From Ruminococcus sp. (lineage in GTDB: Bacteria > Bacillota_I > Bacilli_A > RF39 > UBA660), in contig JAMPHW010000009.1 in the NCBI GenBank assembly GCA_023663235.1, positions 1 to 35,719 on the forward strand: a stretch of 35,719 nucleotides of DNA, given 5' to 3'. The notes below the pieces were generated by a model. That model was not told where the DNA came from. It made no database searches and was given only the letters and a program-made list of their open reading frames with translations. The stretch's first letter is position 1. The number at the start of each line of letters is the position of its first letter. Shown here one piece after another: positions 12,309-34,460 of the stretch. The translations under genes were made by a program, and so were the position numbers.

Positions 12309-12860
12309 ATGGCAATAAGAAATAAAGAAGTTGAAAATTTAATATTTAAAAGTTATTTAGAAGAAGTAATGCAAAAAAAGAAATTTCTAAAAATGAATAG
12401 ATATATCCAACATGGTAATACAACTTGCTTATTACATAGCATTGCTGTATCTTATTATAGCTATCGTTTATGTAAATTATTAAAATTAAAAATACATGAA
12501 AAAGAATTAATAAGAGGGGCCTTATTACATGATTATTTTTTATATGATTGGCACCAAAAATATAAACCAACTAAACGAGAAGGACTTCATGGAAGAATCC
12601 ATCCGCGAATAGCTTTATATAATGCTCGTAAAGACTTTGATATAAATTATTTAGAAAAGGATATTATTGAAAAGCATATGTTTCCCTTAACTTTTCATCC
12701 CCCTAAATATCGTGAAAGTGTTATTATTTGTTTAGTAGATAAAGTTTGTAGCATTTATGAAGTATTTAGCAAAAATGCTTATTTAAAAATAACTCAAACT
12801 GTTGCAGATACTAAAAAAGAACGAAGAATTATTGAAAAAAGAGTTAATTTATATAATTAA
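12309..12860 (+). CDS. HD-domain phosphohydrolase-like protein
   Basis: A 183-residue soluble protein with the metal-binding HD pattern: His43 (LLHSIAV), His74-Asp75 (ALLHDYFLYDWH), further histidines at 94, 98 and 123 (HPRIAL, EKHMFP), and Asp144 (CLVDKVCS). HD enzymes hydrolyse phosphomonoesters, nucleotides or cyclic dinucleotides. The substrate cannot be read from the sequence. Length and spacing fit the single-domain HD proteins common in Bacillota. The start is set by AGGGAG about 9 bases upstream. It converges with the MMPL transporter gene and shares a hairpin with it. Confidence 0.78.
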   Translation: MAIRNKEVENLIFKSYLEEVMQKKKFLKMNRYIQHGNTTCLLHSIAVSYYSYRLCKLLKLKIHEKELIRGALLHDYFLYDWHQKYKPTKREGLHGRIHPRIALYNARKDFDINYLEKDIIEKHMFPLTFHPPKYRESVIICLVDKVCSIYEVFSKNAYLKITQTVADTKKERRIIEKRVNLYN

Positions 12861-12884: not shown

Positions 12885-12918
12885 AAGATAAAAGCCCATA
12901 TCTTTTATCTTAATTTTT
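12885..12918 (-). terminator. Terminator between convergent genes (mainly for the minus-strand transporter)
   Basis: 10-bp stem AAGATAAAAG / CTTTTATCTT with loop CCCATAT. On the minus strand it is followed by a continuous T-run, and on the plus strand by AATTTTT, so it may work in both directions. It overlaps the stop codon of the minus-strand gene. Confidence 0.7.
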
Positions 12919-15900
12919 CTTATAACTATTTCTACAAATAATTCTGTCTACAGATGCTAAAACACCAGGAAGTATTAATAATATTAATATAGCCGATGCT
13001 AAAGCTCCTTGTGAGATAGTCTCGCATATTTTAGCTGCAATAGCTGAAGCAAAATTAGCCACTATCATCGTAACTATTATTAATATAGAAGAAGAATTTA
13101 TTATTGTATGAATAGATTTATTATAAGCGTTTATTATAGCATCTTTAACATTCATGGTGAGTCTTGATTCTTTATAATAAGAAGTATATACAATTGCATA
13201 ATCAATAGTTGCTCCCATTAGTATCGCTTGAACTATTAATAATGATATAAAGTACACAGACCCACCAGAAAGTGATATGTAACTCATTGTTATATATACA
13301 GCACATTGAATTATTAAAACTAATATTAACGGAATTAATAAATCTTTAAAGGTTATAGCAACTACAACAAATATAAATATCATTGTAAGAATAGTTATTC
13401 TATTAAGTTCATCATTAAATGTTCCACTCATTTCAACTGCCATTGGAGAATTTCCAACTACATATATACCATCAATTTTACCCAAGTCATTATTTAATGT
13501 GTTTATAAAATTAAATGTTTCTTCAGATTCAAAAGAGTATTTAGTGTTTAATACAACTCTTGAATATTCATCTGATACAATTAACTTTTTAGCTTTATCA
13601 ATTGTATCTTTAGCATCTTTTATTGTATTGTGCATTTCCTCATCAATGAAATCTTCAAATCTCGTATCATTCAAAATATCTTCATTTAAATAATTAATAA
13701 ACTCTTCAACAGTAATACTCCATAAACTATCATACTCATTTATACTACTATTATATAAATAAACTAATTCTATCAAAGATTTATCTAAATTATCACTTAA
13801 TACATTTAAAGTTCCATATAACTCCAAAGAATTGTATTTTTCATTATTTAATGCTTTACTCATAATGGAGTTAATTGTTATTAGTTTTTCTCTTGTTTCT
13901 TGATTAAATTTATCAGCGTAATCTTTATCATCCATAACTTCATTAATAATAAAGTTTATATAATTATAAAAGGATACTTTCTGATTAGCTTTAATATACT
14001 TAAAGTCATATAAACTATATAATAAGCTTATTGTATCATTATCTATGTCCAGTAAATCACCTATATATGTATGTGTTAGTTTAGTATTATTTAAGCTGTT
14101 AATCATAACTTTTTTAACTAAATCTAATAGTTCTAAATCATCATTATTTATTTTATCTTTTAATAATTCATCGTTTATATTATCTAATATTAAATTTGTT
14201 AGTTCTAAAGGTGATATTAAAGTATCATAATTTAAATAATCATATAGACCATATATTTGTCTTACTTGATCTTTTTCTGTGCCTGTTATTTTGCTAACAT
14301 CTTTATAATTATATCTTGTTTTAATATTGCTTGTAACCATATAAGCAAGTTCTAAAGAATCATTATTATTGCCAAGAGAATCAGCAAGTAGAGAACTATC
14401 TTTATTTTGATAAAGGAAAGCTATTAAATCTTTAATTGATATTTTATCTATTTTATTAAGATTAGTAGCATTAGCTGTACCATAAATAAAACTAACCTTT
14501 AATTTATCTTGATTTAACATATTAGAAAGTTCACTAGCTGTATAAAAGTTATCTGCATTGCTAGTAATCGTATAAAGAAGATTTAGACCATCTTTATTAT
14601 CACCTAAACTACTAGCTATTAAAGAATTATCTTGATTATCATAAATAAATTTAATTAAATCCTTAACAGATATTTCTTCTTCTTTATTGGTCACTCCATA
14701 AATAGCACTAATAGTTAATGTATCTAGTTTATTATTTGTTATAGATTTAGGAAATTCACTTACAGAATATTCTTTATCACTCATAAGTAATAAAGCTTCA
14801 GTTAAATCTAATTTAGTAGCAAATTCTAATGGCGTTTTAAGTTCGGTTCCTAATTTTTCGTCTAAAGCATTTTTAATTGTCTCATCTGTAACATCAATAC
14901 TAAAAATATTATATAAATCATCATTATTCATTTTAACATTTTTAATTTTATTTAATTCTATTATTTTATTTAATGAAGCTTTAGTAATTTCATCAAAATA
15001 ATTACTAAAAAGAGGATTAGTACTTAATGTTAGGGCATTACTAGCAAATTCATTAACATTAAGACTAGCTTTAGAACCACCATATACTTGATATAATAAT
15101 TCAGTTGTAGCTTCATCTAAGCCAAAATCTTTAAGAAAATAAGCCATAGTTTTACTGTCTAATGCTTTTTCAATAGTTTGCTTGTCTGATAAAGTTTTTA
15201 AAGTCTTAAGGGTTTCTTTTTCAGTATCGCTAGCCGAATTTAAAGCTAAAGTCGCAAAATCATTAATTTTCATTTTAATATTTGGATTATTATATCCATC
15301 ATATAACGTATATAGCAAATTAATCTTTTCTTCATTTAATTTTAAACCAAAACTTGCTAAGTTCTTACCCATCTCTGAACTAGTTAATTCTTTTGAAACA
15401 ACACTGTCAGTAGAAAGAGTTTTTAATAGATTAAGAGAATCTATGGTATCATCATCAAACATATCTTCATATTCATTGTCATTAGCAAGTCTTAAAGCGG
15501 TTTTAGCAAACTCATTTAAAGTAATTTTGGTATTGCTATCTGATTTAATTCGATGAAATAATAATAGTTGTTCTATTAAATCTTCATCAATTTCAAACAT
15601 ATTAGAAAGTTCTTTAGCATTCATCTTTTTATTAATTGTATTATTATCTGTAAATTTCTTAAGTTGCTCTAATTTAGATATTGTATCATCATCTAAACTA
15701 CTATTATATTCAGGATCTTTAGCAACATCATTAAGCATGAAATCTACGAATGTTTTAATTGTCATTTTTGTATTTATATTTTTACTATTATAATAGATTA
15801 ATATATTTTCCGCATCTGTTTTATCCATATCTAAATCATACATTATTTCACTTATATTTCTCTTTTTGTTAATCTCACTTGATGTAGCAAAGTTAGCTAG

Positions 15901-17361
15901 TAAATCAATATTTTCACGAACTTCATCACTTAAAGAATCTTTAAAGTTTTCATTAGGATAAATCTCATTTTGTATAAAACTAATAAAATCACTCATTGTT
16001 AAAGAACTAGTTTCATCTTTATTAAAATAGTTATAATATATAATTTTAATTAAATACTCATCAACACTTGTATTTTCTCCTAAACTATCAAATTTAGGAT
16101 TTAATTCATCATAAGTTAACTTTTCGTTAATTGTATTAGAGTAGCATAAAACAGTATCAATTTTATTATCTTCTTCTAATTTTTTACAATAACTTGTTAT
16201 TAAATCTTCATATTTATTTTCATATACAATAGCTATTTGATTGGTTGCAGGAAATATTTTTCCAACTTCATCTTGTTCGGAATCGGTATATAAAATTTTA
16301 GTATTTCCTTGAAGAAAGTAAGCTAAAGCAAAAAGTATAATAACAGTAATTGTTTGGAACCATCTTGTTTTATAACTAAAAATTCCTAATTTAGTTAAAT
16401 TAAAATGAGGCATTTTCTTATGGGTTTTAGCTATTAAATTATCGCATAAAAGGAGTAGGGCAGGTAAACATAAAAAGATACATATTAAGCTTAATAAAAC
16501 CCCTTTAGATAAAACAAAGCCTAAATCACGTCCAATAGTAAAACTCATAAATACTAAAGCCAGTAATCCTACAATAGTTGTAATAGAACTACTAGATATT
16601 GACTTAAAAGATTCATATAAAGCATTTTTCATGGCTTTTACTTTATCATTAGTCTTTTCTTTTTCTTGTTTAAATCTATTAGATAACATAATTGAATAAT
16701 CCATAGATAAGGCTAGTTGTAATATTGCGGTTATAGAATCAGTTATTGATGATACGCTTGGAAAAATAATATTAGTACCTTTATTTATAAAAACCGCCAG
16801 TCCTATAGAAATTAAATATAAGAAAGGTTCCAAATAAGATTCACTTAAAATAATTAAGATAATCATAGCACAAATAATAGCAATCGCTACAATTGATATA
16901 TCTAATATTGGTTTATTTTCATCGTAAATAGAACCACTCATTCCGGCTGTATCAAAATTATCTATAATATAATTATATACTTCTGTTGCAAGGCGTGAAT
17001 CACTATAATCATTAACATTTATAACATATAAAGTATAATTATCTTTATTGTAATCATCATCATTTTCATAATCGACACTATCTACACCATCAATATTTTT
17101 TAATTTATTTAATGTATTTATTTTTTCTTCATTAGTTAAATCTTTAAACATAACATTAAGGGTCGAACTATCTTGTTTAGAAAATTCAGACTCCATAATA
17201 TCATTACCTATTTTAGTCTCTGAAGTTGCAGGTAAGTATTCCATAATATCTTCATTTATTTTAACTTTAGTCGATAAAAAAAGACTTATACCAGCAAGAA
17301 CAATAAATAGGATTAAAAAGATATTTCTTTTTTCTACTATATAATCAGTAATTTTTTTCAT
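12910..17361 (-). CDS. MMPL/RND-family transporter with a giant repeat insertion in the second extracytoplasmic loop
   Basis: A 1483-residue proton-driven exporter of the MMPL (YdfJ-like) type. TM1 is at 13-30. The first loop (31-152) carries EYLPATSE. TM2-6 lie at about 153-308, with the proton-relay Asp in LALSMDYSIML (Asp221), and TM7 is at 334-350. A loop of about 970 residues follows, then TM8-12 (1322-1470) with the second Asp motif GATIDYAIVY (Asp1387). Loop residues about 455-1240 consist of roughly ten degenerate helical repeats of 65-75 residues, each opening like TIKTFVDFML and closing like LIELVYLYN. Usual MMPL proteins have 700-1000 residues. The start is the ATG with GGAGGG 8 bases ahead; an upstream GTG is less likely. 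It diverges from a TetR regulator that probably controls it. The substrate is unknown. Confidence 0.9.
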   Translation of the reverse strand: MKKITDYIVEKRNIFLILFIVLAGISLFLSTKVKINEDIMEYLPATSETKIGNDIMESEFSKQDSSTLNVMFKDLTNEEKINTLNKLKNIDGVDSVDYENDDDYNKDNYTLYVINVNDYSDSRLATEVYNYIIDNFDTAGMSGSIYDENKPILDISIVAIAIICAMIILIILSESYLEPFLYLISIGLAVFINKGTNIIFPSVSSITDSITAILQLALSMDYSIMLSNRFKQEKEKTNDKVKAMKNALYESFKSISSSSITTIVGLLALVFMSFTIGRDLGFVLSKGVLLSLICIFLCLPALLLLCDNLIAKTHKKMPHFNLTKLGIFSYKTRWFQTITVIILFALAYFLQGNTKILYTDSEQDEVGKIFPATNQIAIVYENKYEDLITSYCKKLEEDNKIDTVLCYSNTINEKLTYDELNPKFDSLGENTSVDEYLIKIIYYNYFNKDETSSLTMSDFISFIQNEIYPNENFKDSLSDEVRENIDLLANFATSSEINKKRNISEIMYDLDMDKTDAENILIYYNSKNINTKMTIKTFVDFMLNDVAKDPEYNSSLDDDTISKLEQLKKFTDNNTINKKMNAKELSNMFEIDEDLIEQLLLFHRIKSDSNTKITLNEFAKTALRLANDNEYEDMFDDDTIDSLNLLKTLSTDSVVSKELTSSEMGKNLASFGLKLNEEKINLLYTLYDGYNNPNIKMKINDFATLALNSASDTEKETLKTLKTLSDKQTIEKALDSKTMAYFLKDFGLDEATTELLYQVYGGSKASLNVNEFASNALTLSTNPLFSNYFDEITKASLNKIIELNKIKNVKMNNDDLYNIFSIDVTDETIKNALDEKLGTELKTPLEFATKLDLTEALLLMSDKEYSVSEFPKSITNNKLDTLTISAIYGVTNKEEEISVKDLIKFIYDNQDNSLIASSLGDNKDGLNLLYTITSNADNFYTASELSNMLNQDKLKVSFIYGTANATNLNKIDKISIKDLIAFLYQNKDSSLLADSLGNNNDSLELAYMVTSNIKTRYNYKDVSKITGTEKDQVRQIYGLYDYLNYDTLISPLELTNLILDNINDELLKDKINNDDLELLDLVKKVMINSLNNTKLTHTYIGDLLDIDNDTISLLYSLYDFKYIKANQKVSFYNYINFIINEVMDDKDYADKFNQETREKLITINSIMSKALNNEKYNSLELYGTLNVLSDNLDKSLIELVYLYNSSINEYDSLWSITVEEFINYLNEDILNDTRFEDFIDEEMHNTIKDAKDTIDKAKKLIVSDEYSRVVLNTKYSFESEETFNFINTLNNDLGKIDGIYVVGNSPMAVEMSGTFNDELNRITILTMIFIFVVVAITFKDLLIPLILVLIIQCAVYITMSYISLSGGSVYFISLLIVQAILMGATIDYAIVYTSYYKESRLTMNVKDAIINAYNKSIHTIINSSSILIIVTMIVANFASAIAAKICETISQGALASAILILLILPGVLASVDRIICRNSYKKN

Positions 17362-17382
17362 AATTTTTCCCTCCAACACAAC

Positions 17383-17411
17383 ATTCTATTCAATTTTAAC
17401 TTCAATGACAA
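17383..17411 (-). promoter_or_regulatory. SigA promoter of the MMPL transporter
   Basis: On the minus strand: TTGTCA, a 17-base spacer and TAGAAT, ending 22 bases before the ATG. Confidence 0.6.
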
Positions 17412-17492
17412 CTAAAAAATTATTAATTATGTATGTTATCCAACACTTTTGCTATTATTTATGGTTATTTATCATACAAACTGTTAAATATC

Positions 17493-17521
17493 TTTACTTT
17501 TGTCGAATTAGTAACTATAAT
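17493..17521 (+). promoter_or_regulatory. SigA promoter of the TetR regulator
   Basis: TTTACT, a 17-base spacer and TATAAT. A 9-base palindrome TAGTAACTA (17509-17517) overlaps the -10 box and could be an autoregulatory operator, although so short a palindrome is not strong evidence. Confidence 0.55.
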
Positions 17522-17540
17522 TTATGGCGAGGCGAGTAAT

Positions 17541-18107
17541 ATGAGTAAAAATGAAGATTTAAGAATAACTAAAACCAAAAAAGCTTTATTTAATTCTTTA
17601 TTAGAACTAATGAAAATAAAAGCTTTTGAAGAAATAACGATATCAGATATATGTGAGGTAGCTTTAGTAAATCGCTCAACCTTTTATACCCACTTTGATG
17701 ATAAATACGAGCTATTAGTGGCCCTTTTAGATAATCAAAAAAGCATTTTATTAAATGAATTAAGAAAAAATGAAGAAGAGGTTAATACCAAAGAATATTT
17801 TATGGAGATGTTAAAAATAATTATTCTACATGCCGAAGAAAACAGAAATGTTTATTCATCAATTTTATTAAAGAATAGGAATGGTATTTTAATAGATATA
17901 TTACTAGATGTTGTAAAAAGGGATATTGATGACCGCTTAGAAAAAGACTTTAATCCAAATAATAATACAATACCAAGAAGTTTTATATCTAGATTTTATT
18001 TAGGAGCTATATTAAGTATAGGATTAGATTGGTTGAGTGAAAATAAGAAATATACAAAAGAAGAAATCCTTTTATATATAGATAAATTAATACCCGAAAA
18101 TATATAG
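17541..18107 (+). CDS. TetR/AcrR-family transcriptional regulator
   Basis: A 188-residue one-component repressor-type protein. The N-terminal helix-turn-helix is clear: ITKTKKALFNSLLELM, FEEITISDICEVALVNRSTFYTHFDDKYEL, ending near residue 60. The rest is the helical ligand/dimer domain, which is not conserved enough to name an effector. It diverges from the MMPL exporter, the classic layout for a repressor of a neighbouring efflux gene, so local control of that exporter is the leading inference. A longer reading from 17433 is rejected because the predicted promoter lies inside it. The ATG at MSKNED has a GAGGCGAG site about 6 bases upstream. Confidence 0.88.
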   Translation: MSKNEDLRITKTKKALFNSLLELMKIKAFEEITISDICEVALVNRSTFYTHFDDKYELLVALLDNQKSILLNELRKNEEEVNTKEYFMEMLKIIILHAEENRNVYSSILLKNRNGILIDILLDVVKRDIDDRLEKDFNPNNNTIPRSFISRFYLGAILSIGLDWLSENKKYTKEEILLYIDKLIPENI

Positions 18108-18209: not shown

Positions 18210-18704
18210 ATGAAGAGAATTATAATATTGTTATTATTATTCATTATAACAATTACAGGTTGTAAAAAAGAAGCAGATATTAACCTCGAAGGAATAATTA
18301 ATATTTCGAAAGAGACTATGCGATATGTAATGTCATTTGAAAAATATGAAGGAGATACTGCTAAAGATACAACAATGGAAATAAAAAATGAAACCTTAAC
18401 TAATAGTTCTGCCACCATTATAATTAAAGATTTTAGTGGAAAGGATTATATTTATGACAATTCTTTTAGTATATGTAAGATAATTGATAATTATTGCATA
18501 TATTTAAAATCAAAATTTGCAGGTGGAGTTATTGATTTAATAGCATACATGGTATATGAAAATAATCCTATAGAATTAGAAATAAATTGGGAAGAGACAT
18601 ACGGAAAGCTAAAACCTGGTGAATATAAGTTAATTAAAAGCACTTCTTTAAGAGATAGCTATAAAGAAAAGATGATCTTTTCTACTGACTTTACTATTGA
18701 ATAA
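18210..18704 (+). CDS. Small lipoprotein with bacterial Ig-like (Big_14-like) domain
   Basis: A 164-residue exported protein. The signal peptide ends in the lipobox ITGC with Cys18 as lipidation site. The mature part (about 45-164) is a beta sandwich: KYEGDT, then NSSATIIIKDFSG, a partly eroded ligand-edge strand, and the characteristic ending YGKLKPGEYKLIKS and FSTDFTIE. This ending is typical of the Ig-like domain found in many Bacillota lipoproteins. The 209-residue protein at 19813 is a paralogue, sharing KYEGDTA, LT.SAT.II.D.S.KD and the GKLK.G.YKL ending. It is the first gene of a five-gene exported cluster and follows the tetR gene. The molecular role is unknown. Confidence 0.75.
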   Translation: MKRIIILLLLFIITITGCKKEADINLEGIINISKETMRYVMSFEKYEGDTAKDTTMEIKNETLTNSSATIIIKDFSGKDYIYDNSFSICKIIDNYCIYLKSKFAGGVIDLIAYMVYENNPIELEINWEETYGKLKPGEYKLIKSTSLRDSYKEKMIFSTDFTIE

Positions 18705-18742
18705 AAGTAAATATTATAAATAAATTACTAAATTATATATTT

Positions 18743-18776
18743 AATTAAAGTTATACTTTTGTATAACACTTTAATT
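18743..18776 (+). terminator. Stem-loop, probable terminator after the lipoprotein gene
   Basis: AATTAAAG-TTATAC-TTTT-GTATAA-CA-CTTTAATT, followed by ATTATTTATTTAT. The stem is long but A+T-rich and the tail is not a pure T-tract. Confidence 0.45.
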
Positions 18777-18788
18777 ATTTATTTATAT

Positions 18789-18797
18789 TGATATAAT
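18789..18797 (+). promoter_or_regulatory. Extended -10 promoter
   Basis: TGATATAAT. The predicted start at about 18804 coincides with an ATG that is therefore not usable, which supports the ATG at 18819 as the gene start. Confidence 0.5.
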
Positions 18798-18818
18798 TGT
18801 AGTATGAAAGGAAAAAGC

Positions 18819-19334
18819 ATGAATAAAGAAATTATTAAAGCGATAGTTGTTATATTTATTGTTACTTTAATAGTAATTGGAATGCCTATAGTTTATAAAT
18901 CTAAAATGGTGGTTAAAGAGGATAAATATGAAATTTTAGAAAGGAATTATGAAGATGTTATAATAAGTTTAATGCAAACTAAAAAAATTGGTATTTATCT
19001 TAAAGGCGATATAATTATGAAAAAGAATGAAACTGGAGAAGAAAAGGTTATACCAGAAGGCATAATTAATAATATTACTGATTATGAAGAAGTACAATAT
19101 TTTGTTAATTTAATTAATGATTGCCCTTTAATTACTCATGAAATTAATTCTACCTTGATGCCAACTAGCGAAAGGTTATATTTGTATGATGAAAATGATA
19201 AAGAATTAATGCGGATAGAAGTTGATGGCTCTGTTATAGATATATGGAAAGGTGACAATTATTATCATTTAGAAAATAAACATCAAGCAAAAATAAATGA
19301 ATTTTTAGAGAAATATATAAATTATGAATTTTAG
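18819..19334 (+). CDS. Membrane-anchored exported protein of unknown family (cassette copy A)
   Basis: 171 residues. The first 30 residues form a signal anchor with no lipobox. The remaining domain has YEEVQYFVNLINDCP in the middle and a C-terminal beta-rich part ending SERLYLYDENDKELMRIEVDG, IDIWKGDNYYHL, then a final helix INEFLEKYI. The same arrangement (Asn/Asp turn, DNNEEI, LEIW.YSYYYT, then IDKFI) is found in the protein at 20509, so the two are paralogues. AAAGGA 6 bases before the ATG fixes the start. I do not recognise a named family. Location at the outer face of the membrane is the only safe inference. Confidence 0.68.
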   Translation: MNKEIIKAIVVIFIVTLIVIGMPIVYKSKMVVKEDKYEILERNYEDVIISLMQTKKIGIYLKGDIIMKKNETGEEKVIPEGIINNITDYEEVQYFVNLINDCPLITHEINSTLMPTSERLYLYDENDKELMRIEVDGSVIDIWKGDNYYHLENKHQAKINEFLEKYINYEF

Positions 19335-19345
19335 GAGAATTAAAA

Positions 19346-19714
19346 ATGAAAAAGAAAAATTTAATTTTCATATTAATTTTAATACTATTGGTATTTATTT
19401 TAGCATTTAATACTTTTTATGCTCCTACTAAGAAAGAAGAAACAACAGAATTTCACCCCTTAGAGTTAGAAGGCGTTGTAAAAGAAATTTGTACCTATTG
19501 TATAGGAGATGATATTTTAGAACCATATCCTCATTATTTTTTACTAGAAAGCTATAAATTAGACAAAGATAATAATAAAATGACCTATATAATACATTAT
19601 GATAGAAAACATGAATTTAAAATTGGACAAAGAGTAAAACTTACTTATGATGGAATATTGGAAAGTCTTTCACCTCAAATATATCCTTTAACTATTGAAG
19701 TGGTAAATAACTAG
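19346..19714 (+). CDS. Small exported protein with DUF3221/YobA-like OB-type domain
   Basis: 122 residues: a signal anchor (7-26) and a short beta domain. The middle is ELEGVVKEICTYCIGDD and the end is FKIGQRVKLTYDGILESLSPQIYPLTIEVV. That last motif (G-x-V-x-(V/L)-x-Y-D-G, then S-x-P-x-x-x-P) is the hallmark of DUF3221 (YobA-like) proteins. The CTYC pair could form a disulfide or bind metal. AGGAGA lies 7 bases before the ATG and 11 bases after the stop of the preceding gene, so the two are cotranscribed. A related beta stretch occurs in the protein at 3680. Function unknown. Confidence 0.68.
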   Translation: MKKKNLIFILILILLVFILAFNTFYAPTKKEETTEFHPLELEGVVKEICTYCIGDDILEPYPHYFLLESYKLDKDNNKMTYIIHYDRKHEFKIGQRVKLTYDGILESLSPQIYPLTIEVVNN

Positions 19715-19784
19715 GAATAAGCATATGAATAAAGTGTTTTTCTATTAAACTTTTTTGTTTCATATTTTTATTTTAATACCTATT

Positions 19785-19793
19785 TGTTATAAT
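19785..19793 (+). promoter_or_regulatory. Extended -10 promoter of cassette copy B
   Basis: TGTTATAAT 20 bases before the chosen ATG. No clear -35 box. Confidence 0.5.
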
Positions 19794-19812
19794 ATTAAAG
19801 AAAGTGGTTTAT

Positions 19813-20442
19813 ATGAAAAAAGTAAAAATAATTAAAATTGGTTTGTGGTTGATGCTTATAGTTTTTCTTTTATTGATATTTTATGGTATGTATTTTAAGG
19901 AATACAAAGATAATTCTTATCTTTTATTACCCGAAGAATGCCAAAAAGCTTATGATTGTAAATGTCCTTCTAAAGAAAAAGGCGAAGCTTATTGTAACTG
20001 TAAATTTAAAAAATTTTTTGTTACAATAAAAGGGTTTTGTGCTAAAGGTCATATAAATGAAGATAAAATAATTGAAGATAGAGCAAAGTATGAAGGAGAT
20101 ACAGCAGAAAATATAATAATGTCTATTAAAGAAGGTACACTAACAGATGGCTCTGCAACAGTAATAATTGAAGATTTAAGCGATAAAGATAATATGTATG
20201 GAGAAGAATATACTTTATACGAAAAAATTGATAATGAATGGTTTAAGCTTTCTGAAATAGTTGATACTGTTGTTTGGGATGCTTTAGATTATCACGTAAA
20301 TCAAAATAGACTGTTAGAATTTGAAATAAATTGGCACTATCACTTTGGAAAATTAAAGAAAGGTAAATACAAACTCGTAAAGTGGTTAGTTCCAGAAGGT
20401 GGAAGAGAAGTCTATTCTTTTTCAGTAGATTTCACTATTTAA
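19813..20442 (+). CDS. Membrane-anchored Ig-like (Big_14-like) protein with Cys-rich segment (cassette copy B)
   Basis: 209 residues. A signal anchor (8-27) replaces the lipobox of its paralogue at 18210. Residues 43-76 hold six cysteines (43, 49, 51, 61, 63, 76) as C-x5-CxC-x9-CxC-x12-C, unusual for a low-GC Gram-positive surface protein and suggestive of disulfides or a metal site. From residue 93 the Ig-like domain runs KYEGDTAENIIMSIKEG, GSATVIIEDLS, EKIDNEWFKLSE, WHYHFGKLKKGKYKLVKW and FSVDFTI. Its edge strands fit the family pattern better than those of the upstream copy. An in-frame GTG 9 bases upstream is possible, but ATG with AAAGTGG ahead is preferred. Confidence 0.74.
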   Translation: MKKVKIIKIGLWLMLIVFLLLIFYGMYFKEYKDNSYLLLPEECQKAYDCKCPSKEKGEAYCNCKFKKFFVTIKGFCAKGHINEDKIIEDRAKYEGDTAENIIMSIKEGTLTDGSATVIIEDLSDKDNMYGEEYTLYEKIDNEWFKLSEIVDTVVWDALDYHVNQNRLLEFEINWHYHFGKLKKGKYKLVKWLVPEGGREVYSFSVDFTI

Positions 20443-20470
20443 AAGAAAGGCAGTTTTGTCTTTCTTTTAA
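20438..20470 (+). terminator. Stem-loop, probable terminator overlapping the stop codon
   Basis: TTAAAAGAAAG-GC pairs with GTCTTTCTTTTAA around a six-base loop (13-14 bp). The T-rich right arm takes the place of a separate T-tract. Confidence 0.5.
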
Positions 20471-20508
20471 GTCGTATTTATAACATAGAAAAGTAGGAAA
20501 ATTAAAGA

Positions 20509-20937
20509 ATGAAAAAAATGCTTATATCTATATTAATAATAATTTTAAGTATATTTTTAATACATACTTATAATGATAATCATTTACCAAAAGATGTAAT
20601 TAAATACTTAAAAAAGACAGAATCAGTTATGATATGTAATTATCGTGATGAGGAATTACATCAAGGATGTAAAACTGAATATATTAATAAAATAATTACT
20701 AAGAAAGATGATATAAACAGCTTTATTTCATTACTTTCATATTCTAAAATAGAAACAGAAAAAATTATAAGTACAATGCAATTTCCAGCATATTCAATTT
20801 ATTTGCTTGACAATAACGAAGAAATACTAGCTAGATTAGTTTATAAACCTTGTTTAAAACTAGAAATATGGGATTATTCATATTATTATACAAATAAAAT
20901 ATATGAAAAAATTGATAAATTCATTAATAGTAAATAG
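20509..20937 (+). CDS. Membrane-anchored exported protein of unknown family (cassette copy B)
   Basis: 142 residues, paralogue of the protein at 18819 and placed in the same position after an Ig-like protein. Residues 3-19 form a hydrophobic signal. The middle has DDINSFISLLSYSKIE and the end reads YSIYLLDNNEEILARL, LEIWDYSYYYT, IYEKIDKFI. There are three cysteines (43, 54 and 120). The ribosome binding site is weak (AGGAAA about 10 bases before the ATG), and another ATG lies 9 bases further in. A hairpin separates it from the preceding gene, so expression may depend on readthrough. Confidence 0.65.
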   Translation: MKKMLISILIIILSIFLIHTYNDNHLPKDVIKYLKKTESVMICNYRDEELHQGCKTEYINKIITKKDDINSFISLLSYSKIETEKIISTMQFPAYSIYLLDNNEEILARLVYKPCLKLEIWDYSYYYTNKIYEKIDKFINSK

Positions 20938-32062: not shown

Positions 32063-33415
32063 ATGAAAATAAAAGATATATTAGATATTAAAGGCGTTAA
32101 ACTCCTAAATGGTGATGTTAATACAATTCTAGATAATTTAGTTTATAATACGGATAATGTTACTATAGATAGCACTTTTTTAGGCCTTAAAGGCGAAAAT
32201 ACTAATGGCAGTAAATATTATAAAGAGGCTTTTAAAAAAGGGGCTAAAACTTGTGTCTTATGTGATATTGATATTTCTGAAGAAGAATTAAATATATATA
32301 AAGATAAAAATATTATCATGACTAATGATACTCTAGCTTTTATTCTTGAAGTAACTAAAAGAAAAAGAGACATTTTAAATATTCCCATAATCGCTGTAAC
32401 TGGTAGTGTCGGTAAAACTAGTACTAAAAACATCATCGCAGATATTCTTAGTATCAAATATAAAGTTTTAAAAACAAGTGGTAATTTAAATACTAATGTA
32501 GGTCTTGCTGTAACTCTAATGGGTATTACTGATGAAAATATGATTGTCCTTGAAATGGGAATGAGTAAATTTGGTGAGATAAAAGAACTTACAAATATTG
32601 CTAAGCCCGATGTTGCCGTTATAACTAATATTGGTACTGCTCATATAGGTAACTTAGGAAGTAGAGAAAATATTTTAAAAGCCAAATTAGAGATTTTAGA
32701 TGGGTTAAAAGGACCATTAATTATTAATAATGATAATGATATGCTATATAATTGGTCTAAGAAAACAAGTATTAAAAATCCCATAATCACTTTTGGTATT
32801 GATAAAGAAAGTAACTATAAAGCAAGTAATATAACATACAATAAAAGTGGTAGTCATTTTAGATTAAGAGAAGAAACAGTAAATAATAATGTCATAGGAA
32901 AACATTTTATCTATAATTCTTTGGTAGCTTTTGCTATTGGTGATTTATATGATATTCCTCATCAAGACATTATAAATAAACTAAAAAATATTCCTTTAGA
33001 ACCTAATCGTATGGAATTAATAAATAAAAATAATATAACCATTATTAATGATACTTATAATGCTAGTTATGATTCTGTTTATTACGCTTTAGAGGTCTTA
33101 AGCTCTTTTGATGGCAGACATATAGCTGTTTTAGGCGATATCTTAGAATTAGGAGAATTTAGTGAAGAAATTCATCGCAATATTGGAAAATTAATTAAAG
33201 AAAATAAAATAGATTTCTTAATAACTGTTGGAGAAGAATCAAAATATATAAATGAAGAAGCTTTAAATAATAATTTTAATCATAATAATTCTTATCATTT
33301 TAATAGTAATAAAGAAGCCATAACATTCATAAATAATATAAAGACTATTAATGACACTATTTTAATAAAAGCTAGTAATGGCATGAACTTTATTGAAATT
33401 GTATCTAACATTTAA
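32063..33415 (+). CDS. murF: UDP-N-acetylmuramoyl-tripeptide--D-alanyl-D-alanine ligase
   Basis: 450 residues. Cytoplasmic Mur ligase that adds D-Ala-D-Ala to UDP-MurNAc-tripeptide. The N-terminal UDP-binding domain includes STFLGLKGENTNGSKYYKEAFKKGA (a MurE/MurF-type substrate loop). The ATP site is TGSVGKTST (113-121), then KTSGNLNTNVGLA and VLEMGMSKFGEI, which separate MurF from MurE. The C-terminal domain shows PNRMEL, NDTYNAS and VLGDILELGEFSEEIH, all MurF-specific. ddl, which makes its dipeptide substrate, follows 10 bases after the stop. Confidence 0.96.
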   Translation: MKIKDILDIKGVKLLNGDVNTILDNLVYNTDNVTIDSTFLGLKGENTNGSKYYKEAFKKGAKTCVLCDIDISEEELNIYKDKNIIMTNDTLAFILEVTKRKRDILNIPIIAVTGSVGKTSTKNIIADILSIKYKVLKTSGNLNTNVGLAVTLMGITDENMIVLEMGMSKFGEIKELTNIAKPDVAVITNIGTAHIGNLGSRENILKAKLEILDGLKGPLIINNDNDMLYNWSKKTSIKNPIITFGIDKESNYKASNITYNKSGSHFRLREETVNNNVIGKHFIYNSLVAFAIGDLYDIPHQDIINKLKNIPLEPNRMELINKNNITIINDTYNASYDSVYYALEVLSSFDGRHIAVLGDILELGEFSEEIHRNIGKLIKENKIDFLITVGEESKYINEEALNNNFNHNNSYHFNSNKEAITFINNIKTINDTILIKASNGMNFIEIVSNI

Positions 33416-33425
33416 GGAGGTTAAA

Positions 33426-34460
33426 ATGAAATTAGCAGTTCTTTTTGGTGGGCGCTCTAATGAACATGAAGTCTCAACCGTCTCTGCATCTTCTATACTT
33501 GAAAACTTAGATAAAGAAAAATATGATATAACTCCTATTTATTTAGATAAAGAAAATAATTTCTATAAATGGTTAGAACCAATATCTAATATAAAAACTT
33601 TAAAAATAGGAGAGTTACCCCATAATTTAGAAAAAATAAGTAATAGTTTTGAATATTTAAAAACTTTTGATTTAGTTTTTATCATGATTCACGGTAAAGA
33701 TGGTGAAGATGGCGTCTTTAGTAGTATTCTTGATTTTCTAAACATTAAATATATTGGCAATAGTCCACTATCTAGTACTCTTACAATGGATAAAATTTTA
33801 ACTAAAGAAATACTAGAAAATAATAATATTAAAACTTCTAAATATATGGCTATAACTAAATATAATAATGAATATTTATATAAAGATTTAAGTTTAAATA
33901 TTAAAGATTTGATAAATAAAATAGAAGAAACCCTAAATTATCCTTTATTTGTTAAACCATCAAGAAGTGGTTCTTCTCTTGGTATCTCTAAAGCTAATAA
34001 CAAAAAAGAACTAGAAGAAGCTATAAATATAGCTCTAAATACTGATAGTCGTCTTGTAATTGAAGAAATGATAATTGGAAAAGAATTAGAATGTGCTATT
34101 TTAGAAAAAGATAATGAAGTTATGGCTTCATGTGTTGGTGAAGTTAAAGCAGCTGATACCTTTTATAGCTTTGATGCTAAATATAAAAATACTGAAAGTT
34201 TAACTATCATACCAGCAAGCATTAGTGATGAGGACTCTTTAAGAATAAGAGAAGCTGCTAAAAAAGTTTTTAAAATTCTAAATTGTCATGGTTATAGTCG
34301 TTGTGATTTCTTTCTAACTAATAGTGGAGAAGTAATACTAAATGAAATTAATACCATCCCTGGTTTTACAGAAATAAGTATGTATCCTAAGCTTTGGGAA
34401 TCAAGTGGTATAAAATATAATGAAGTATTAGATATCTTAATAAATGAAGCCATAAAATAA
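33426..34460 (+). CDS. ddl: D-alanine--D-alanine ligase
   Basis: 344-residue ATP-grasp enzyme that makes the D-Ala-D-Ala dipeptide for MurF. The N-terminal GGRSNEHEVS motif, then HGKDGEDG, FVKPSRSGSSLGISK (ATP loop), ELECAIL, FYSFDAKY, and NEINTIPGFTEISMYPKLW are all present. The AKY tyrosine used by D-Ala-D-Ala ligases is retained, whereas VanA-type D-Ala-D-Lac ligases differ there, so a normal dipeptide product is inferred. A longer reading starting inside murF is rejected: AAGGAGG lies 5 bases before this ATG. The gene ends in a terminator that begins within its stop codon. Confidence 0.96.
   Translation: MKLAVLFGGRSNEHEVSTVSASSILENLDKEKYDITPIYLDKENNFYKWLEPISNIKTLKIGELPHNLEKISNSFEYLKTFDLVFIMIHGKDGEDGVFSSILDFLNIKYIGNSPLSSTLTMDKILTKEILENNNIKTSKYMAITKYNNEYLYKDLSLNIKDLINKIEETLNYPLFVKPSRSGSSLGISKANNKKELEEAINIALNTDSRLVIEEMIIGKELECAILEKDNEVMASCVGEVKAADTFYSFDAKYKNTESLTIIPASISDEDSLRIREAAKKVFKILNCHGYSRCDFFLTNSGEVILNEINTIPGFTEISMYPKLWESSGIKYNEVLDILINEAIK

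Follow-up and report, generated by a model that had tools for sequence, protein, structure and literature searches.

Large inserts found in the second porter domain of mycobacterial MMPL transporters are essential for efflux or assembly (PMC12501195, PMC12183618). MmpL5 carries a 196-amino-acid (aa) coiled-coil insert in this domain, which is needed for efflux and has been modelled as a 13-nm tube (PMC12501195), and the expanded helical region of MmpL10 (residues 480-734) drives oligomerization (PMC12183618). In Staphylococcus aureus, the MMPL-type pump FarE, whose TetR regulator FarR is divergently transcribed, protects the cell against antimicrobial fatty acids (PMC12671165). Here, we describe an MMPL transporter gene in a 35,719-nucleotide stretch of DNA from Ruminococcus sp. 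(contig JAMPHW010000009.1; the whole stretch is referred to as the window), the product of which carries a long array of helical repeats of some 80 residues in its second porter domain. The source is an uncultured bacterium of the gut-type Bacilli. Exporters of this kind are well known, but the attachment, whose length can be adjusted, is undescribed; the limited collection that we searched for literature on MMPL proteins with repeats in Firmicutes or Clostridia contained no account of an array like it.

The window protein resembles MmpL4 and MmpL5, the transporters of the MmpS-MmpL-AcpM pumps, in its RND core fold and in the long helical insert that its second porter domain carries. However, the insert of MmpL4/5 is an antiparallel coiled coil that works with MmpS, whereas that of the window protein is an array of ~840 aa built from four-helix units, which vary in copy number, and its gene has no conserved partner gene nearby. 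The array does not form an antiparallel coiled coil, given that its units consist of short helices of ~8-13 residues joined by bridges. The expansion of MmpL10 is likewise confined to the second porter domain but is a coiled coil rather than a series of tandem homologous units. MmpL3, HpnN and the short MMPL proteins of Bacilli share the core fold with the window protein and have no array, the short Bacilli proteins carrying one unit. The FarE/FarR system, also in a monoderm host, is the closest characterized arrangement among monoderms and places an MMPL-type RND pump beside a divergent TetR gene as the window locus does; this likeness is one of gene arrangement, and the text consulted mentions no repeat array for FarE.

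The open reading frame (ORF) of the transporter (12913..17361, reverse strand) has an ATG start and a stop codon at 12910-12912 and encodes 1483 aa. It was matched by the Pfam MMPL family in two stretches (126.1 bits against a cut-off of 20.5; E 2e-36), and MmpL3 and MmpL4 were the closest solved structures by sequence. The N-terminal core (residues 1-411; 16129..17361, reverse strand) comprises transmembrane helices (TM) 1-7, the first porter domain and the first beta-alpha-beta half of the second porter domain, while the C-terminal core (residues 1256-1483; 12913..13596, reverse strand) holds the second beta-alpha-beta half and TM8-12. Two Asp-Tyr pairs, D221-Y222 in the N-terminal core and D1387-Y1388 in the C-terminal core, were invariant in 22/22 aligned proteins; such pairs in TM4 and TM10 of MMPL proteins form the proton relay. 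Full-length modelling with AlphaFold was performed on a seven-unit relative, L097 (1197 aa), and the window protein was modelled over residues 355-1310. The L097 model has the RND fold: it contains 12 TM helices, TM1 and TM7 are each followed by an extracytoplasmic porter domain, and structure comparison matched it to MmpL5, MmpL4 and MmpL3 at Z scores of about 42-45. The window ORF is thus a 12-TM MMPL/RND exporter, for which we infer an outward direction of transport, and it was the single MMPL gene found in the 1.5-Mb source genome.

The repeat array occupies the TM7-TM8 loop, at residues ~412-1255 (13597-16128), within the second porter domain. An earlier note, made from the sequence of the window alone, had proposed about ten helical tandem repeats of 65-75 residues in the second large loop of an MMPL transporter, with only one of the two large loops expanded. 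The repeats, their helical nature and their location were borne out by profile scores against shuffled sequences and by the helices of the AlphaFold model, and the first large loop (about residues 33-150) is indeed ordinary in size. The number was also close, at about eleven unit-equivalents, but the period was not, given that unit lengths range over 63-87 residues and are mostly 75-87. To avoid circularity, we used a hidden Markov model (HMM) built from 156 units of 20 proteins, all outside the clade of the window protein. In the window protein, this independent HMM matched ten stretches with scores of 13-76 bits (E-values from 4e-6 to 1.4e-25), while the top score among 1000 shuffled loops was 10.7 bits. 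An earlier profile seeded on the window protein had matched units in every long array-bearing relative. A search of genome contigs with the single window protein as query gave no matches, and no tandem repeats were detectable at the DNA level in the array. The ungapped autocorrelation of the loop was weak (z 2.6 at lag 79) because unit lengths vary, and profiles were needed to bring out the units. Unit-profile matches were also seen in three short non-MMPL ORFs (G017, G038 and G430; E 2e-4 to 6e-4), and some relatives have weak additional unit matches at ~378 and ~409.

All parts of the array lie on the reverse strand, and the bit scores that follow are those of the independent HMM. One unit is split into halves, with helices C and D opening the array and helix A closing it. 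The opening half-unit (residues 412-454; 16000..16128) was delimited by AlphaFold secondary structure and is kept in the single-unit homologues. It is followed by unit 1 (residues 455-533; 15763..15999; 55.3 bits), unit 2 (534-613; 15523..15762; 75.7 bits), unit 3 (614-697; 15271..15522; 48.6 bits) and unit 4 (698-767; 15061..15270; 26.9 bits), the region of which is missing from most relatives. Unit 5 (768-830; 14872..15060) scored 13.3 bits, and unit 6 (831-897; 14671..14871) is degenerate, scoring -0.4 bits at best, with low model confidence nearby. Units 7 (898-974; 14440..14670; 25.9 bits) and 8 (975-1049; 14215..14439; 28.8 bits) precede unit 9 (1050-1129; 13975..14214; 45.9 bits) and unit 10 (1130-1216; 13714..13974; 52.4 bits), and the closing half-unit (1217-1255; 13597..13713), which runs from helix A onward, scored 40.5 bits over residues 1217-1290.

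The array probably grew as one four-helix unit, present as a single copy in short homologues from Bacilli, was duplicated again and again. The short MMPL proteins L167 and L170-L172 (short homologues, 685-747 aa long) have a single unit at the corresponding site, L168 carries about two, L165 and L166 three, L164 seven and L169 eight, and ~100 further loci carry 6-11 units, with 9 the commonest number. The comparison among orthologues that the note had called for revealed, among the relatives, copy numbers of 1, 2, 3 and 6-11. In a phylogeny built from the core, with the repeats left out, unit number shifts at least 29 times, and the window protein (11 units) is sister to L031/L090 (9 units). 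The proteins L108 and L115, although 97.6% identical, differ in length by precisely one unit of 76 aa. Units at equivalent positions in related proteins typically share 45-70% identity, while units within the window protein are mostly 20-30% identical, indicating that the units are old and position-specific. Units 7 and 8 depart from this pattern, with 42% identity (E 8e-18) to each other and E > 0.1 against the other complete units of the protein, and the closest match of each is the one unit that relatives such as L033/L079 have at ~848. Units 3 and 4 (39% identity) are both nearest to unit 614 of the relatives. Each pair is thus a lineage-specific duplication, with unit 4 the duplicate of unit 3 and unit 7 a duplicate paired with unit 8, and these two events account for the two extra units of the window protein. 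The note had singled out the pair at 898-963 and 975-1041 as a recent duplication; duplication does explain that pair, but "recent" applies only in a relative sense, given that no DNA-level repeat remains, and the pair at 614 and 698 had been missed.

The unit was found in 20/395 genomes of a sample of the source organism's class, and the relatives come from metagenome-assembled genomes, several of them from rumen or gut samples, that carry the label Bacilli, Tenericutes, Bacillales, Erysipelotrichaceae or Clostridia. A distant metagenome-assembled genome labelled Clostridia encodes a 1524-aa protein (L146, 5005-9579; ~30% identity) with an 11-hit array, so that long arrays either have an early origin or evolved repeatedly.

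Mean identity across the clade is ~0.9 in the TM helices and 0.6-0.7 at both array ends and falls symmetrically to 0.26-0.44 in mid-array, where insertions relative to relatives are also located. Across eleven independent close pairs, the ratio of nonsynonymous to synonymous substitution rates (dN/dS) was 0.085 in the core, 0.20 at the array ends and 0.25 in mid-array, and the array is therefore under purifying selection that is looser than that on the core. In a separate comparison, L077 and L078/L089 showed a mid-array dN of 0.35-0.55 and dN/dS of 0.7-0.9 though the proteins are otherwise similar; these values near 1 probably reflect misalignment or recombination (array shuffling). The second porter domain consists of two beta-alpha-beta halves, and both array ends enter it between them. 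The anchoring of both ends, the symmetric conservation and the mid-array copy-number changes together suggest that the array forms an arch or hairpin with its apex in mid-array rather than a free arm. An arch would reach only about half as far as a straight rod of the same contour length; at a rough estimate of 2-2.5 nm per unit, ~eleven units would give about 11-14 nm, which is less than the thickness of a typical Gram-positive wall and makes wall crossing unlikely. The "extracellular solenoid arm" of the note is therefore supported as an extracytoplasmic helical array but not as a free arm through the wall.

The AlphaFold model of the window protein (mean predicted local distance difference test score [pLDDT] 79.6) agreed with the helical repeats proposed in the note, showing the same pattern in each clear unit: a bridge, helix A (~12 residues), a short turn, helix B (~13), a bridge, helix C (~8) and helix D (~13). 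The unit is therefore predicted to be a four-helix module. Among the Pfam and NCBIfam collections, no curated repeat or domain family explained it. Pfam matches on 30 units were scattered and weak, with DUF4441 on 3/30 (best E 7e-4) and others, many of them helix-turn-helix (HTH) families, on one or two units each; NCBIfam matches all fell in the MMPL core save one weak match (E 0.59). We rejected an HTH identity for the units, given that the Pfam HTH matches were scattered over single units. The strongest PDB match, the "CAP repeat" of 8vd6 (E 3e-9), was also set aside, as it is a designed protein and its E-value sums five weak HTH-like stretches; 8vd6 is cited in a paper on de novo protein design (PMC12339374). 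A fold search with the entire 956-residue array, a multi-unit query, gave no significant match (best E 0.039), with Z scores below 5 except at the porter base. The order of elements agrees with that of EF-hand pairs such as the lobes of calmodulin, with helix, loop, bridge and helix occurring twice per unit, and the unit motif [ILM][ST]xxE[FL] aligns with the second half of the EF loop; a weak PDB match to GCAP3 (E 0.017) points the same way. However, the canonical 12-residue calcium loop DxDxDGxIxxxE occurred 0 times in the loop regions of 120 proteins, and a profile comparison of the unit with EF-hands, represented by calmodulin and troponin C sequences, gave a probability of 0.7%. A calcium-binding EF-hand is ruled out by these two results, and the unit is possibly a distant, calcium-free structural relative.

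Upstream of the transporter lies a divergent gene for a TetR-family regulator (17541..18107, forward strand; Pfam TetR_N and TetR_C_8). Its ORF was called from 17433, but translation more likely begins at an in-frame ATG at 17541, which GGCGAGG precedes. With that start, positions 17362-17540 are probably a control region shared by the MMPL and TetR genes. A TetR gene stands divergent to the transporter in 70/109 loci, and no other neighbour recurred in a fixed orientation among the 109, the next most frequent occurring in 11. No MmpS-type domain was present among the window neighbour genes, and no MmpS-like gene was a conserved neighbour in the 109 loci. The source genome encodes five penicillin-binding protein transpeptidases and has two Glycos_transf_4/MraY-type matches, and the organism is therefore presumably walled; towards its end (32063-34460, forward strand), the window also holds genes for a Mur ligase and a D-Ala-D-Ala ligase, which fit a walled organism. 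On its other side, the MMPL gene is tail-to-tail with a gene for an HD-domain protein (12309-12860, forward strand), which is not a conserved neighbour by clustering; in L033, the corresponding side holds a DUF5662 protein gene. Five small ORFs follow the TetR gene on the forward strand (18210-20937), with Big_14 Ig-like domains in 18210-18704 and 19804-20442 and no convincing Pfam match in the others, and they are possibly a small surface-protein cluster.

We consider the locus best explained as encoding an exporter of amphiphiles that is under TetR control and bears a modular arch on its extracytoplasmic side, a tentative reading to which we assign a probability of about 0.4. A proton-driven MMPL/RND exporter would be switched by the divergent TetR regulator, and its cargo would most likely be amphiphilic or lipid-like (fatty acids, bile-type compounds or envelope lipids) and taken from the membrane; the analogy with FarE/FarR argues that the window protein most likely exports amphiphiles. 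Both ends of the arch would be seated on the porter domain with the mid-array units as its far apex, near which single-unit gains and losses would tune its length. The arch would extend the outer face of the transporter into the wall zone and could act as a scaffold that passes substrate off the membrane or as a docking surface, a role comparable to that of the MmpL4/5 coiled-coil insert but built from other parts. Several points weigh against this explanation. The mid-array dN/dS of 0.25 is just modestly above that of the ends, so the apex is perhaps loosely constrained rather than functionally tuned. Parts of the mid-array, within residues 510-564 of the model, fall below pLDDT 50, and at a predicted template modelling score of just 0.51-0.54, the packing between units and the geometry of the arch are beyond the reliability of the model. 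TetR regulation leaves the substrate unfixed. The direct support is for the repeats, their position, the copy-number changes, the purifying selection and the TetR linkage; the fold of each unit is a model prediction, and the direction of export, substrate class, arch function and arch geometry of the window protein are inferred.

The sole MMPL of a 1.5-Mb genome might instead belong to an envelope-building complex rather than to stress efflux, its arch being a binding scaffold whose repeat surface captures a partner outside the membrane, be it a protein, a polymer or a lipid. Partner binding is common among helical repeat arrays, and an array that is under purifying selection yet evolves faster than the core is consistent with such a role. 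We regard this alternative as doubtful, given that no conserved partner gene adjoins the transporter in the 109 loci, that units mostly 20-30% identical and position-specific are unlike a uniform polymer-binding array, and that acidic arrays are not universal (isoelectric point 4.4 in the window protein, range 4.05-9.3). The note's suggestion that the repeats could recruit a partner or substrate gains little from the neighbourhood for the same reason, with only the TetR regulator conserved nearby. The frequent copy-number changes and loose mid-array conservation would also fit a near-neutral expansion, in which unequal recombination resizes a functionless array that is tolerated away from the transport path, and the single-unit homologues, judging by their conservation, presumably work without an array. 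Such drift is unlikely where the array dN/dS of 0.20-0.25 indicates selection on sequence, the array ends hold 0.6-0.7 identity across the clade, and ~850 aa are retained in small genomes, at 6-11 units across ~100 loci.

An oligomeric tube formed by the arches of neighbouring subunits, which would be the equivalent in Bacillota of the coiled-coil tube of MmpL5, seems more improbable still. The MmpL5 insert lies in the same porter domain, is needed for efflux and was modelled as a 13-nm tube (PMC12501195), and the MmpL10 insert drives oligomerization (PMC12183618), but the units described here have short helices with bridges rather than heptad coiled coils, their copy number differs between close relatives, and no MmpS-like gene is conserved nearby. 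Returning to the modular arch on an amphiphile exporter, its boldest extension is a length-adjustable module on the RND exporters of monoderm bacteria, made of a previously undescribed four-helix repeat (possibly an EF-hand-like pair that lacks calcium), which would convey substrate from the membrane to the wall zone or through it and whose copy number would be fitted to the envelope of each lineage; we think this rather unlikely.

Our findings show that gut-type Bacilli have a different solution from the mycobacterial inserts in the second porter domain, one that varies in length unit by unit. The single-unit homologues represent the starting point of the array, and L108 and L115, one unit apart, provide a natural experiment on the length of an extracytoplasmic module. 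Should the arch turn out to move substrate away from the membrane, it would have implications for lipid export in monoderm bacteria, where no outer-membrane partner is available.

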